This document shows, in pieces, positions 39,727-46,331 of a DNA stretch of 54,029 bases. The notes beneath the pieces were generated by a model. It had not been told where the DNA came from and did not search any database. It was given only the letters and a program-made list of their open reading frames with translations. Source of the stretch: Candidatus Aegiribacteria sp. (GTDB taxonomy: Bacteria; Fermentibacterota; Fermentibacteria; Fermentibacterales; JCC-6). The stretch spans positions 1 to 54,029 of the forward strand of contig JAIORS010000155.1 in assembly GCA_021108005.1 (NCBI GenBank). Reading direction: 5' to 3'. How positions within the stretch are numbered: the first letter of the stretch is position 1; every line of letters starts with the position of its first letter. Position numbers and translations under genes: made by a program.

Positions 39727-39755
39727 TTGATATTTTGACTGAAATAGTTTATGAA
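39727..39755 (+). promoter_or_regulatory. Possible promoter of the exported paralog pair
   Basis: TTGATA (39727-39732) and TATGAA (39750-39755) are separated by 17 bases, about 47 bases before the ATG at 39802. Both hexamers have mismatches in an AT-rich region, so this is tentative. Confidence 0.35.
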
Positions 39756-39801
39756 TTATGTGTGGAAGTATGATTTGAAAATTGAAAAGGAAAGGAAAAA
39801 G

Positions 39802-40398
39802 ATGAAATCTGTTTTTATTGTTGTCATCCTTCTTGCTTCTTCACAGATGGCATTCGCTGACATCACAGAAAACTACGGCTGGGAAGGCACCGAGACTATT
39901 TTCGGCATGTATCCGGTCGATGGCTTAACTGCAACAATCGCCACTGATCCGGTACATACGGGTTCACAGTCTCTTCGCCTTGAGCGTCTCTCTTCAAGCA
40001 CACCTCAGGGATATGTTGCATGGATAGTAGGGCTTCAGGACGGCGATGAAGTAACGGGCAGTTTCTGGAGATTCGATGATACACCGCTTGCACCTCCATC
40101 ATGCAGAATATGGGCTCACTGGAATGATGACCCGGGTGATGTTACTGGACACAACGGAAGCGCGAGCGGTAATGACGATTACGGACCAGGCACCGGATGG
40201 GACGAAGTATCCTGGACCTGGACTGTTTCAGGCGGACACACCGGACTTGTTGTTGAAGCAAGGATTTACTCAAATCCCGGGGATATTGTATGGGTCGATG
40301 ACATGACCATCGTTGCGCCGGATCACGCAACAATCCATACACCAGGCAATATGGCTCTTGAGAGCGGCACCTGGGCTGACATTAAAGCGGCATTCTAG
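39802..40398 (+). CDS. Exported beta-sandwich protein, first of a paralogous pair
   Basis: 198 residues from ATG 39802, which has AAAGGA upstream; an upstream in-frame ATG at 39751 would put the signal peptide inside and is rejected. A signal peptide (MKSVFIVVILLASSQMAFAD, cleavage likely after AFA) precedes an aromatic, Gly/Asp/Thr-rich domain with alternating strands resembling a jelly-roll carbohydrate-binding or choice-of-anchor module: ENYGWEGTET, VHTGSQSLRLERL, DEVTGSFWRFDD, IVWVDDMTIVAPD. It ends ESGTWADIKAAF, nearly the same tail as its neighbour. Ligand unknown. Confidence 0.8.
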   Translation: MKSVFIVVILLASSQMAFADITENYGWEGTETIFGMYPVDGLTATIATDPVHTGSQSLRLERLSSSTPQGYVAWIVGLQDGDEVTGSFWRFDDTPLAPPSCRIWAHWNDDPGDVTGHNGSASGNDDYGPGTGWDEVSWTWTVSGGHTGLVVEARIYSNPGDIVWVDDMTIVAPDHATIHTPGNMALESGTWADIKAAF

Positions 40399-40448
40399 AA
40401 GAGTATCCGGTGATATTGATAAGAAAATAATTATGATAGGAGATGATC

Positions 40449-41060
40449 ATGAAACACCTTGTTTCCTTTGCTTCCCTGCTTCTTGTCCTTCCCGTGGCCG
40501 CTCTTGCCATCCAGACTGAAACCTACGGCTGGGAGGAATCTTTCACGGTTATAGCTGTCTATGGTAATGGTAATCCCGAACTCGAGTACTCCTCTCCTGT
40601 TTACTCAGGTGCACAATCCCTTGAGTTCTACGAATCCCCCCTGGGTGCAACGCCTCAGGCTATTATATGCTGGATACAGAACCTCGATGAGGGCGACACC
40701 GTTGCGGCATCGTTCTACGTATACGACGATACTCCCAGTTCCAGTCCTTCCGGTCGCATATGGGGCCACTATAACGCAAATTACTCGGATCCAGGCAATT
40801 ACGACGGAAGCGCCGGCGGTAACAGCACCTACTCTTCCGGAATCGGCTGGGAGCAATTGTCACATGAATGGACTATCGATGCTGATTCAACGCACGCGGG
40901 CCTCATGATAGAGGGCAGGATTTACTCGAGCTCGGAATATGACACCCTCTGGTTTGACGAAATGGTGGTTACCGCTCCGGACGGCGCCACGATTGTCTGG
41001 CCGAATGTTCCCGTGGCGCTTCAGCGTTCCACATGGGGTGACATAAAAGCTTCGTTCTAG
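40449..41060 (+). CDS. Exported beta-sandwich protein, second of the paralogous pair
   Basis: 203 residues from ATG 40449, six bases after TAGGAG. The signal peptide ends near PVAALA. The domain aligns along its length with the upstream gene: ETYGWEESFT, PVYSGAQSLEFYES, GDTVAASFYVYDDTP, DTLWFDEMVVTAPDGATI, and the tail QRSTWGDIKASF. Cysteines are almost absent, consistent with an extracellular protein. The pair probably arose by duplication and shares a transcript ending at the hairpin 41089-41115. The function of the conserved tail is unknown; it may be a sorting signal. Confidence 0.8.
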   Translation: MKHLVSFASLLLVLPVAALAIQTETYGWEESFTVIAVYGNGNPELEYSSPVYSGAQSLEFYESPLGATPQAIICWIQNLDEGDTVAASFYVYDDTPSSSPSGRIWGHYNANYSDPGNYDGSAGGNSTYSSGIGWEQLSHEWTIDADSTHAGLMIEGRIYSSSEYDTLWFDEMVVTAPDGATIVWPNVPVALQRSTWGDIKASF

Positions 41061-43474: not shown

Positions 43475-43507
43475 TTTACATTAGCAAAATAAGTCATAGA
43501 ATATAAA
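43475..43507 (+). promoter_or_regulatory. Promoter upstream of the tandem riboswitch
   Basis: TTTACA (43475-43480) is followed after 16 bases by TAGAAT (43497-43502), with TATAAA immediately after (43502-43507). Transcription would begin just before the first aptamer. The preceding 60 bases hold no gene. Confidence 0.55.
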
Positions 43508-43520
43508 CTGGCGGTAGAGC

Positions 43521-43608
43521 ACCGTCATGCAAACCGGGCGAGATCCCGGGACGCAAAGCCACGGGTCCCAGCCGCTTTAGGGGAAAGCGGAAGGACAGCC
43601 GGGTTACC
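43521..43608 (+). promoter_or_regulatory. c-di-GMP-I (GEMM-I) riboswitch aptamer 1
   Basis: The conserved GEMM-I blocks are in order: GCAAACC (43529-43535), a P2 hairpin with a GNRA (GAGA) loop, GGGACGCAAAGCC (43548-43560), a P3 arm whose GGTCC/GGAC strands pair around a variable loop, and AGCCGGGTTACC ending at 43608. These match the cyclic-dinucleotide aptamer class of Vibrio cholerae Vc2. The base just 5' of GCAAACC is T, where Vc2 has the ligand-reading G20. The P1 stem is weak. Confidence 0.9.
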
Positions 43609-43612
43609 GTTT

Positions 43613-43699
43613 GACTCAATGCAAACCGGGCGAGATCCCGGGACGCAAAGCCACGGATCCCAGCCCTGGAAACAGGGAAGGACAGCCGGGTTACCAGAC
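43613..43699 (+). promoter_or_regulatory. c-di-GMP-I (GEMM-I) riboswitch aptamer 2
   Basis: Second complete aptamer, 92 bases downstream of the first and nearly identical to it from 43619 to 43665: GCAAACC, the GAGA-looped P2, GGGACGCAAAGCC, the P3 arm with a shorter variable loop (CCCTGGAAACAGGG), and AGCCGGGTTACC ending at 43695. Tandem placement, same strand and same phase suggest cooperative or two-step control of the downstream gene. Confidence 0.9.
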
Positions 43700-43740
43700 G
43701 TCTGTTCGGGGGGAACCCCGGCCAGGTTGAGGGGGTGCTC
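43700..43740 (+). promoter_or_regulatory. Expression platform between aptamer 2 and the small exported gene
   Basis: CGGGG-GGAA-CCCCG (43707-43720) forms a perfect hairpin. The CCCC (716-719) can alternatively pair with the Shine-Dalgarno G run (731-735), and AACCCCGGC (714-722) with the aptamer's GCCGGGTT (685-692, one bulge). No U tract follows, so control is more likely at translation than at termination. Confidence 0.55.
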
Positions 43741-43743
43741 AGC

Positions 43744-44013
43744 ATGAGGTTGATACCAATCATACTGGTAGCACTTCTGCCGTCGGTAATGTTGGCCAGT
43801 GTAACCATATCCTCCTGCCCCGCCAGTGTTGACAACTATGTCAGCATCGCCAGAGAGGCAATGGATAATGGGGACTACGTCACGGCATTTGCACTCTACG
43901 AATGTGCACTCCGAAGAGATCCCCGCTCTTCAGAAGCCCTTGCAGGCCGTCTTATGGCCAGGGCTTTCATGGAGGAATGTTCTGCGATGCAGATCCAGCT
44001 AAGTTCACACTGA
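43744..44013 (+). CDS. Small exported TPR-like protein under riboswitch control
   Basis: 89 residues from ATG 43744, eight bases after GAGGGGG; an in-frame GTG at 43735 is less likely. A signal peptide (RLIPIILVALLPSVMLAS) precedes one TPR-like helix pair: YVSIAREAMDNGDYVTAFAL with YECALRRDPRSSEALAG. Such a single repeat cannot form a superhelix alone, so it may dimerise or cap a partner. I do not recognise the family. It is the first gene after the tandem riboswitch, so it is the most direct target. A perfect nine-base-pair hairpin follows 22 bases after its stop. Confidence 0.75.
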   Translation: MRLIPIILVALLPSVMLASVTISSCPASVDNYVSIAREAMDNGDYVTAFALYECALRRDPRSSEALAGRLMARAFMEECSAMQIQLSSH

Positions 44014-44035: not shown

Positions 44036-44059
44036 GGGACGGGCATTAAAGCCCGTCCC
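44036..44059 (+). terminator. GC-rich hairpin after the riboswitch gene
   Basis: GGGACGGGC (44036-44044) and GCCCGTCCC (44051-44059) form a perfect nine-base-pair stem with an ATTAAA loop. The following bases GCATTG lack a U tract, so it could be a partial terminator, a processing site or an mRNA-stabilising end rather than a full stop. The glycosyltransferase starts about 110 bases later. Confidence 0.5.
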
Positions 44060-44166
44060 GCATTGTATGGAAATATAGACTGATCCTATTTCAATTTCTC
44101 TTTCAGTTGTTGAGAGTTGAAAATGGAGAGGATCGTGAAACTCTCCCCGCATTGTATATTAGCTAT

Positions 44167-44967
44167 ATGAAATGGTCAGCAATCATTACGACATACAACA
44201 GTGAGCAGGTAATTGAGAGGGTGCTTAACTCTCTATTCTCTCTTCCGTCAGATGAGAGGCCTGTCGATGTTATAATTGTCGATAATGCTTCTTCAGACGA
44301 AACTCAAAGCATCCTCCAATCTTATGAATGGCCATTGAAGCAGATATTCAATAAGGGTAATCTTGGTTTATCAAAAGCAAATAATCTTGGCGTGACTATG
44401 GCTGGCGGTAGCAGTTTGTTCTTTCTGAATCCGGATGTAGAAATTCTTCCAGGAGCTATAAAAGCGTTGCACAAATTCGAGGAAGAACATCCGAATGCAG
44501 CTATCATAGGGCCGGCAATGGTGGATGAAAACAATATCCGTCAGTCAACAGCAAGAACATGGCCATCACCTCTCGTAATCGCTTCACGGAGAACCTTTCT
44601 CGGAAAAACCGGACCAGGCATGAAGATAGCATCTGATCACATGAACAGATTCAATTCAACTGAAACACCGGTGAAACCTGATTGGCTGGTGGGGGCGGCT
44701 TTGTGGTTGACTCCCTCAGGTCGCGAGAGGATCGGACTCATGTCGGAAAAATACTTTCTGTATTTTGAGGATGTCGAGTGGTGCTGGCGAACCTGGCAAA
44801 GGGGAATGGATATCTGGTTTGAACCGAAAGCAAAGATCAGACACGTTTGCCACAGAGAGAGTATTTCGGGAGGAATTACACTGAATCTTCATTTTAAGAG
44901 CATGCTCAGATTTTTTGCAACACACCCCGGTGCTCTGTTTGGAGTCGGACCCGGAGGGAAATGCTGA
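44167..44967 (+). CDS. Family 2 glycosyltransferase, rhamnosyltransferase-like
   Basis: About 266 residues from ATG 44167. The GT-A fold is shown by WSAIITTYNSEQVIERVLNS at the N-terminus, VIIVDNASSDET, GNLGLSKANNLGV and the metal-binding FFLNPDVEI; the acceptor side has WLVGAALWLT and YFLYFEDVEWCWR, as in WbbL-type rhamnosyltransferases. The open frame begins at TTG 44107, but the added residues are not family-like and no Shine-Dalgarno favours either start. It overlaps the next sugar transferase by TGATG. Role: adding a sugar to a lipid-linked surface glycan. Confidence 0.88.
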   Translation: MKWSAIITTYNSEQVIERVLNSLFSLPSDERPVDVIIVDNASSDETQSILQSYEWPLKQIFNKGNLGLSKANNLGVTMAGGSSLFFLNPDVEILPGAIKALHKFEEEHPNAAIIGPAMVDENNIRQSTARTWPSPLVIASRRTFLGKTGPGMKIASDHMNRFNSTETPVKPDWLVGAALWLTPSGRERIGLMSEKYFLYFEDVEWCWRTWQRGMDIWFEPKAKIRHVCHRESISGGITLNLHFKSMLRFFATHPGALFGVGPGGKC

Positions 44968-46331
44968 TGGATCGCAAAAGAAATTTCCTATGGATGCTTC
45001 CCATTACAGATCTTGTTCTGATTACCGGAATCTTCATGGGAGGCTTCTTGTTGAGGCACTCTCTCCTGGTAGATTTGATGGGATCAGATTTCAGACTTTC
45101 TGTCTATCATTACTTCCTGAGCGGGTTGGTGCTGGGTTCTGTTCAGATAGCTTTCATGGCAGTGTTCGGAGTGTATAAGCCCGAGTTCGGTCTCGGCATG
45201 ATAGAGGAAGTTGCAGGAATCATCAGAGGAGCCTTCATGGCCGTTCTGTTCACTCTTGCTATGACTTTCATCACCAGACAGCTTCTTTTCTCCAGATTTG
45301 TGCTGATTTTCTCGTTTCCTGCTTCAGCGCTTCTTCTAAGTTTCTGGCATTCAGCATTCAGAAAGATCAGCAGTAGAACAGGAAATCCATCCAGAATCTT
45401 AATTCTGGGTATTTCTGAGGAAGCCAGACAACTTGGTATTTTCATGGAGAACCGTGCACAGCTCCCATATACTGTAGTTGATTACATCGCTCCAGACACT
45501 CCATCTGATCTGATCTCAGCAATAATTAAAGAGAAGAACGTTCAGGAGCTGGTTGTTGCCAGTCATTCGATTCCATCACCCATACTCTCGACCATCATAC
45601 TTACCTGCGAAAAAATGGGAGTGCAGTATAAGATCGCTGCAGACGTCTTCGCAATTGTGAGCCTTACAGCGAAAATCGCTCATATGGGTGGAACAACACT
45701 GATCGAATCCGTTCCCGCTCCCCTTTCCGGCTGGGGGTTTGTACTGAAAAGAGTTTCAGATATTCTGCTGACAATTATCTTCATTTCTGTTCTTTCACCA
45801 ATCTTTATTTTGAGTGCGCTTGCTATCATGATTGATTCCGGTTTTCCCATTTTCTATAAGCAGACAAGACTGGGCAAGAGAAACAAGTCATTCAAGATGC
45901 TTAAGTTCAGATCAATGCGTAAAGATGCACATGATGAAAAAACTGCTCTCTCCGAGGAAAATGAGCTGTCAGGTCCCCTTTTCAAGATCAAAAATGATCC
46001 TCGAATAACTAGAACCGGGAAATTCATTCGAAGATGGTCAATAGATGAACTGCCGCAGCTTTTCAATGTTCTTTCGGGCAGAATGAGTCTTGTTGGACCC
46101 AGACCGCCACTTCCGGAAGAGGTTGAAGAATACAGCAGAAGGGACTTTAAGAGGCTGCATACTATTCCGGGAGTTACCGGAGTCTGGCAGATCTCCGGGA
46201 GAAGTAATCTGGGTTTTGACGAGATGGTAAAACTTGATCTCTACTATGTTGACAATTGGTCGATCTGGATGGATCTTGCCATTCTTCTGCTCACTCCCTC
46301 GGCAGTGATCAGCGGTTCCGGAGCATATTGA
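44967..46331 (+). CDS. Polyprenyl-phosphate sugar-1-phosphate transferase (initiating, WbaP-like)
   Basis: 454 residues from ATG 44967, nine bases after GGAGG; it overlaps the preceding stop as TGATG. Four N-terminal membrane helices and a CoA-binding-like region (ILILGISEEARQLGIFM) lead to one more helix and the catalytic bacterial sugar-transferase domain: YKQTRLGKRNKSFKMLKFRS, RWSIDELPQLFNVLSGRMSL, VGPRPPLP, TGVWQISGRSNLGFDEMV. It starts repeat-unit synthesis by moving hexose-1-phosphate to undecaprenyl phosphate at the inner membrane. It ends this + strand unit; only a weak hairpin lies in the 53-base gap before convergent serS. Confidence 0.94.
   Translation: MDRKRNFLWMLPITDLVLITGIFMGGFLLRHSLLVDLMGSDFRLSVYHYFLSGLVLGSVQIAFMAVFGVYKPEFGLGMIEEVAGIIRGAFMAVLFTLAMTFITRQLLFSRFVLIFSFPASALLLSFWHSAFRKISSRTGNPSRILILGISEEARQLGIFMENRAQLPYTVVDYIAPDTPSDLISAIIKEKNVQELVVASHSIPSPILSTIILTCEKMGVQYKIAADVFAIVSLTAKIAHMGGTTLIESVPAPLSGWGFVLKRVSDILLTIIFISVLSPIFILSALAIMIDSGFPIFYKQTRLGKRNKSFKMLKFRSMRKDAHDEKTALSEENELSGPLFKIKNDPRITRTGKFIRRWSIDELPQLFNVLSGRMSLVGPRPPLPEEVEEYSRRDFKRLHTIPGVTGVWQISGRSNLGFDEMVKLDLYYVDNWSIWMDLAILLLTPSAVISGSGAY

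Follow-up and report, generated by a model that had tools for sequence, protein, structure and literature searches.

The window analysed here, a 54,029-nt stretch of Candidatus Aegiribacteria DNA, carries on its + strand a leader in which a promoter, a 5' hairpin (P0), aptamer 1, a short linker, aptamer 2, a further hairpin (P4) and the Shine-Dalgarno (SD) region precede, in that order, a start codon at 43744. Among promoter matches in this stretch, a sigma-70-like one scored best (43475-43502; TTTACA, 16 nt, TAGAAT; 10/12), relatives retained TTTACA or TTTACT together with a -10-like box at this site, and transcription is predicted to start near 43510. P0 (43510-43526; GGCGGU-AGAGC-ACCGUC) is followed by two GEMM-I aptamers, aptamer 1 at 43528-43608 (C92 at 43607) and aptamer 2 at 43620-43695 (C92 at 43694). 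In the minimum free energy (MFE) fold, the P1 helix of aptamer 2 is formed by CGUUUG (43608-43613), directly 3' of aptamer 1, and CAGACG (43695-43700). P4 (43701-43726) lies between aptamer 2 and the SD region (GGGGGUGCUC, 43731-43740), and a hairpin of differing sequence was found at its site in nearly all relatives; because P4 has no U tract, it was ruled out as a terminator.

A cmscan of the 54-kb window against Rfam 15 returned two full-length, + strand matches to RF01051 (c-di-GMP-I, GEMM-I; gathering cut-off, 35 bits), at 43518-43611 (61.0 bits, E 1.5e-9) and 43612-43698 (60.6 bits, E 1.8e-9), and no other match above the gathering threshold. RF01051 was the best match for both aptamers in the search against all of Rfam, and no GEMM-I copy other than this pair was found in a search of the whole genome. 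The initial annotation, made from the sequence before any database search, had described two complete GEMM-I aptamers here and had proposed an Infernal search with RF01051 as a check, and the two matches over threshold bear the description out. Its finer details also held: equivalent positions of the aptamers are 92 nt apart (43528 versus 43620), the copies share a 38-nt identical core (ATGCAAACC...ACGG), and GCAAACC, GGGACGCAAAGCC and GCCGGGTTACC are found in both. The P2 tetraloop, P3, C44, A47 and C92 are in place in each copy. The same annotation had regarded tandem GEMM-I aptamers as uncommon, which is contradicted by a survey of tandem riboswitches listing 347 doublets and 12 triplets of c-di-GMP-I, more than of any other class (PMC9481103).

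RF01051 matches over the cut-off were present in 30 of the 42 genomes of the class (Fermentibacterota), nearly always as exactly two matches with the same spacing; therefore, the pair is not a chance occurrence. In 29 of the 42, an adjacent pair with the same layout lies ahead of the same gene for a small, exported TPR-like protein, and the thirtieth genome, G009, has one aptamer only at the locus. That aptamer (L026/L262, on G009:C14) lies between the same bracket strands, and its solitary state may reflect a natural deletion between identical cores or an assembly collapse. The pair was seen in two of three families, in several genera of one and in a single genome (G004) of the other, on contigs from Candidatus Aegiribacteria, Ca. 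Sabulitectum, which is placed in Candidatus Fermentibacterota, and candidate division Hyd24-12. It is almost always the sole GEMM-I of its genome; in G011, of the same genus, we also observed a third GEMM-I elsewhere, a canonical single copy that has G20 and is followed by a U-rich stretch (L008, G011:C105:7315-7399). The tandem leader of Fermentibacterota, along with the small gene, is also present on a contig of a Syntrophaceae-labelled MAG (L098, L191); this contig has probably been misbinned.

The product of the gene behind the leader (43744-44013, + strand) is an exported protein of 89 aa that contains a single TPR-like motif. The N-terminus resembles a signal peptide, the TPR matches are weak and below the Pfam cut-offs, and the length ranges from 87 to 91 aa across relatives. 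RNA and gene co-occur in 30 genomes, so the earlier placement of the aptamers ahead of a small exported protein stands, with the protein conserved along with the RNA. In G038, a full-length homologue lies at a contig end with the leader off the contig; excluding G038, the RNA-less genomes of the 42-genome class contain no full-length homologue. A strong hairpin without a U tract follows the stop codon (44036-44059, + strand; GGGACGGGC-AUUAAA-GCCCGUCCC), and one was found 3' of the stop codon in nearly all relatives. This hairpin probably ends the transcription unit by termination, and the small gene appears to be monocistronic. The next gene, where visible in Aegiribacteria, is usually SerRS on the opposite, convergent strand; between the small gene and SerRS, the window genome, alone among the loci seen, has a GT2 glycosyltransferase and a bacterial sugar transferase (44107-46331). 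An exopolysaccharide operon as the target, suggested by the initial annotation's inclusion of such genes further on, was ruled out because the strong hairpin intervenes and relatives have the convergent SerRS there; these genes are neighbours peculiar to the window. Further upstream, 39751-41060 of the same strand encodes a pair of neighbouring exported proteins that resemble each other (215 and 205 aa).

The 5' end of the mRNA (GGCGGUAGAGCACCGUC) can either form a small hairpin, P0, or pair with the SD region 210 nt downstream. The 5' strand of P0 imitates the SD (GGCGGU versus GGAGGU) and its 3' strand is an anti-SD, such that ACCGCC or ACCGUC can pair with GGCGGU in P0 or with the SD GGAGGU. 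When the window leader was folded without constraints, the MFE structure contained a long-range helix, GAGCACC (43517-43523):GGUGCUC (43734-43740), that encloses both aptamers and forms together with them, the P1 of aptamer 2 and P4. P0 and the long-range helix are mutually exclusive, as the ACC strand is common to both, and the long-range state is predicted to lie below P0 by a median of ~7 kcal/mol.

We assessed these elements in a structure alignment of 28 genomes, comparing the cells paired in the proposed register with those paired in slid registers. For the combined structure, 97.1% of cells were paired, versus 26-49% when slid, and 15 pairs were changed on both sides; none of 500 shuffles came out as high. 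P0 folds in 28/28 genomes, with 97.6% of cells paired and two pairs changed on both sides; the P1 of aptamer 2 (CGUUU:AGACG) had 97.1% of cells paired and one such pair, and both-sided changes were also present in the aptamer helices. The long-range helix had 99.5% of cells paired (32-60% when slid) and appeared in the free MFE of 25/28 leaders, although a bulge was needed in the most distant relative, L020. Because its 3' strand, GGUGCUC, is invariant in 28/28 leaders, the helix shows zero both-sided, compensatory changes among the 28 Fermentibacterota genomes; five of the six changes in its 5' strand retain a standard or wobble pair. A shuffle test of the 5'-SD duplex energy in single Fermentibacterota leaders was not significant (median z -1.7) owing to their high G+C, and conservation therefore had to carry the argument.

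The invariance of GGUGCUC might be explained more simply if it were conserved merely as an extended SD for the 16S tail (GAUCACCUCC), with the match at the 5' end being incidental. GGAGGUG is indeed complementary to that tail, and five start codons of the same genome are preceded by the extended SD GGRGGUGAUC. However, GGRGGUGCUC occurs solely at this gene; its invariant C mispairs with the 16S tail and pairs with a leader G, which fits, on the present alignments, a leader partner rather than the 16S tail. The partner strand is itself conserved, its changes being almost all to wobble pairs, and pairing of the 5' end with the SD and AUG is found independently in Bipolaricaulota. We therefore consider a purely ribosomal explanation very unlikely.

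The Bipolaricaulota evidence comes from a class rich in GEMM-I, and closely adjacent GEMM-I pairs occur in many groups. In nine of ten sampled adjacent Bipolaricaulota pairs, the first 26 nt of the leader pair with the SD and start codon (z below -2.5), whereas just one of the 30 single Bipolaricaulota aptamers passed this z threshold, indicating that the bracketed dual GEMM-I recurs and, in this phylum, is tied to the adjacent arrangement. The duplexes of the pairs (-22 to -33 kcal/mol) represent stronger pairing than in Fermentibacterota, and when the nine leaders were folded without constraints, the 5' end formed 15-19 bp with the SD/AUG. The bracketed pairs include L279, L282, L283, L284, L285, L039 and L064. 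Eight of the nine leaders precede frames for signal-peptide-bearing proteins of 140-169 aa, the frame at L283 being broken after 20 codons, and the four of these exported proteins that were tested had no Pfam match over the cut-off. GGAGGUGCU at the SD is common to Fermentibacterota and Bipolaricaulota.

These features bear on how many switches the leader contains. The two RF01051 matches abut, and the gap between the aptamers is within the <20 nt criterion of the adjacent-aptamer, one-platform class. We found no + strand terminator-like site between the aptamers, no second platform after aptamer 1 and, on inspection, no conserved pairing that could serve as a canonical P1 for aptamer 1, the 3' flank of which serves as a P1 strand of aptamer 2. 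The initial annotation had implied two ordinary, independent c-di-GMP-I riboswitches in series, which would act pseudo-cooperatively. The high RF01051 scores of both copies, the frequency of c-di-GMP-I tandems in the survey cited above and the many GGDEF proteins of the genome are all in keeping with that interpretation; against it stand the abutting matches with neither a terminator nor a second platform between them, the single SD, the use of the aptamer-1 flank by aptamer 2 and, as described below, the U at position 20 of both copies. Two independent switches are thus an improbable explanation. What survives of the original assignment is the GEMM-I family and the tandem layout; rather than two separate riboswitches, a single platform appears to span both aptamers, with its anti-SD 5' of aptamer 1 and its SD 3' of aptamer 2.

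In Vc2, the ligand is contacted by G20, A47 and C92 (PMC4744006), and position 20 sets specificity, G20 for c-di-GMP and A20 for cGAMP (PMC6456294). Substitution of G20 lowers the affinity of Vc2 about 30,000-fold, and in vivo the G12U mutation eliminated control of Vc1 by c-di-GMP (PMC4744006). By alignment, position 20 is the base before G21-C22 (Rfam column 11), and in both window copies, at 43528 in aptamer 1 and at 43620 in aptamer 2, it is U, neither G20 nor the cGAMP-type A20. Across 57 Fermentibacterota aptamers, the base was U in 18, C in 18, G in 18 and A in 3, whereas 69 aptamers of other phyla (leaving out L191, the apparently misbinned Fermentibacterota contig) had G in 62, A in 7 and no pyrimidine; the difference in pyrimidines (36/57 versus 0/69) gave a Fisher p of 5e-17, with sequences that are not independent of one another. 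The 51 Bipolaricaulota aptamers likewise had no pyrimidine (G in 49, A in 2), and the bracketed leader L279 keeps G20 in both aptamers. In Aegiribacteria, position 20 of aptamer 1 is C, U or A but never G, and that of aptamer 2 is always U; in Sabulitectum, aptamer 1 has G, with one A, and aptamer 2 mostly C; and the outlying L013, L020 and L005 have G20 in both. Read most simply, this pattern suggests that G20 was ancestral and was then lost. Elsewhere, in adjacent arrays of 2-4 aptamers (L032-L150, from Clostridia and others), the first aptamer had G or A at position 20 in 72/72 cases, and later aptamers had C or U in 18/112.

The other core residues that we checked, part of the list in PMC3764141 with C59, G79, G83 and G90 not mapped, were invariant in both aptamers of 28 genomes: C22, A23, A25, G32, A35, G42, C44, G45, A47-A49 and C92. 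The constancy of A47-A49, C44, C92 and the tetraloop argues that binding still matters, while high-affinity binding of c-di-GMP by the window aptamers seems doubtful. Given the losses caused by G20 changes in Vc2 and by G12U in Vc1, strong, ordinary c-di-GMP sensing is unlikely in Ca. Aegiribacteria, and ligand control may be weak or lost. The consensus blocks on which the first assignment relied are present, but with U20 in each copy they do not imply normal c-di-GMP or cGAMP binding. Because G20 is absent, we filed both copies as structural members of the GEMM-I family, not as proven c-di-GMP sensors.

The same data could be taken to mean that the aptamers no longer sense anything and serve instead as a rigid scaffold to juxtapose the 5' end and the SD, or as a temperature- or ribosome-responsive structure. 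G20 is lost, each copy allows a U20-A47 pair in the window fold, which would close the pocket, and the enclosing helix is predicted without ligand. A pure scaffold, however, would have no need of A47 and C92, and these, with A48, A49, C44 and the tetraloop residues, do not vary in either aptamer across the 28 genomes, unlike position 20. We regard a ligand-blind structure as unlikely.

We found 18 GGDEF matches and a single PilZ protein in the window genome. Hypr GGDEF enzymes have Ser or Thr in place of Asp at the specificity position. Thirteen of the genome's GGDEF domains, with two degenerate and three weaker matches outside the count, were read at the presumed position, and 12 had Asp, one had Asn and none had the Ser/Thr of Hypr enzymes. 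The domain with Asn (GHPMGN) is L154 (G000:C1:2439-2921). With no Ser/Thr variant among the 13 domains read, cGAMP made by a Hypr GGDEF appears less likely as the signal.

A further possibility is a changed ligand, with the pyrimidine-20 GEMM-I variant reading another cyclic dinucleotide or another guanine-containing compound; for example, U20 might face the adenine of a compound such as 3',3'-cGAMP, leaving C92 to read G. The role of position 20 in specificity (PMC6456294), the frequency of pyrimidine 20 in this lineage as compared with its absence from both the controls and Bipolaricaulota, and the invariance of the remaining pocket, expected if binding is kept, all favour such a change. Nevertheless, aptamer-1 position 20 varies within a genus (C, U, A), which looks more like relaxation than a new contact, and the GGDEF domains read offer one Asn and no Ser/Thr. 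A changed ligand therefore seems rather unlikely, if less so than a scaffold. Extended to the whole architecture, it would place the twin aptamers of Ca. Aegiribacteria in a variant class of GEMM-I that prefers another ligand, having pyrimidine 20 but retaining C92, and that is read out through a bracketing platform with its anti-SD at the 5' end, the platform having arisen or been inherited in at least two phyla; we put this forward only tentatively, as one of the less probable outcomes.

We consider it probable that the leader is a GEMM-I riboswitch in which two aptamers share one translational expression platform that brackets them. When folded and occupied, the aptamers would bring the ends of the leader together, and the long-range helix, as a shared outer P1, would close and hide the SD (OFF); otherwise, P0, which is made first, would hold the anti-SD strand and translation would proceed (ON). 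The ligand would most likely be a cyclic dinucleotide produced by GGDEF enzymes of the cell, either c-di-GMP or a close analogue; with G20 gone but C92, A47 and the remaining pocket invariant, binding would be weaker or less selective for the second base. OFF with ligand is the sign that this model predicts, but the folds do not fix the direction, since P0 and the long-range helix terminate at nearly the same nucleotide beside aptamer 1, and the opposite sign may apply. The ligand, the switching direction and any cooperativity are inferred.

A phylum-wide pair closed by a single helix that covers the ribosome-binding site, and echoed in a second phylum, makes GEMM-I cooperativity directly testable. 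In one genus, both aptamers have lost the specificity base with no change in the remainder of the pocket, and the position-20 series G/G, G/C and N/U within one architecture could reveal how a cyclic-dinucleotide aptamer loses or changes its specificity. We found no description of a bracketed dual GEMM-I arrangement in the literature searched, which covers riboswitch papers in part. The window aptamers resemble c-di-GMP-I (RF01051) in their full-length covariance-model match, P2 tetraloop, P3, C44, A47 and C92, but they have U20 instead of G20, and their single platform is split to both sides of the pair. With the GEMM-Ib (cGAMP) riboswitches of Geobacter they share aptamer variation at position 20 and exported or surface-protein targets; that base is A in Geobacter and U or C here, so that the pair differs at position 20 from both GEMM-Ia and GEMM-Ib, and the 13 GGDEF domains read include no Ser/Thr Hypr enzyme. 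Known tandem c-di-GMP-I riboswitches (PMC9481103), such as the triple array Bc3-5 (PMC4759541), also place like aptamers in one leader, but they are classed as independent with several platforms, whereas here one platform encloses both aptamers. Two adjacent like aptamers feeding one platform recall the glycine riboswitch, although the aptamer is different. In the adjacent-aptamer class, the platform is placed after the last aptamer (PMC12452182), whereas in this leader the anti-SD strand lies before aptamer 1.
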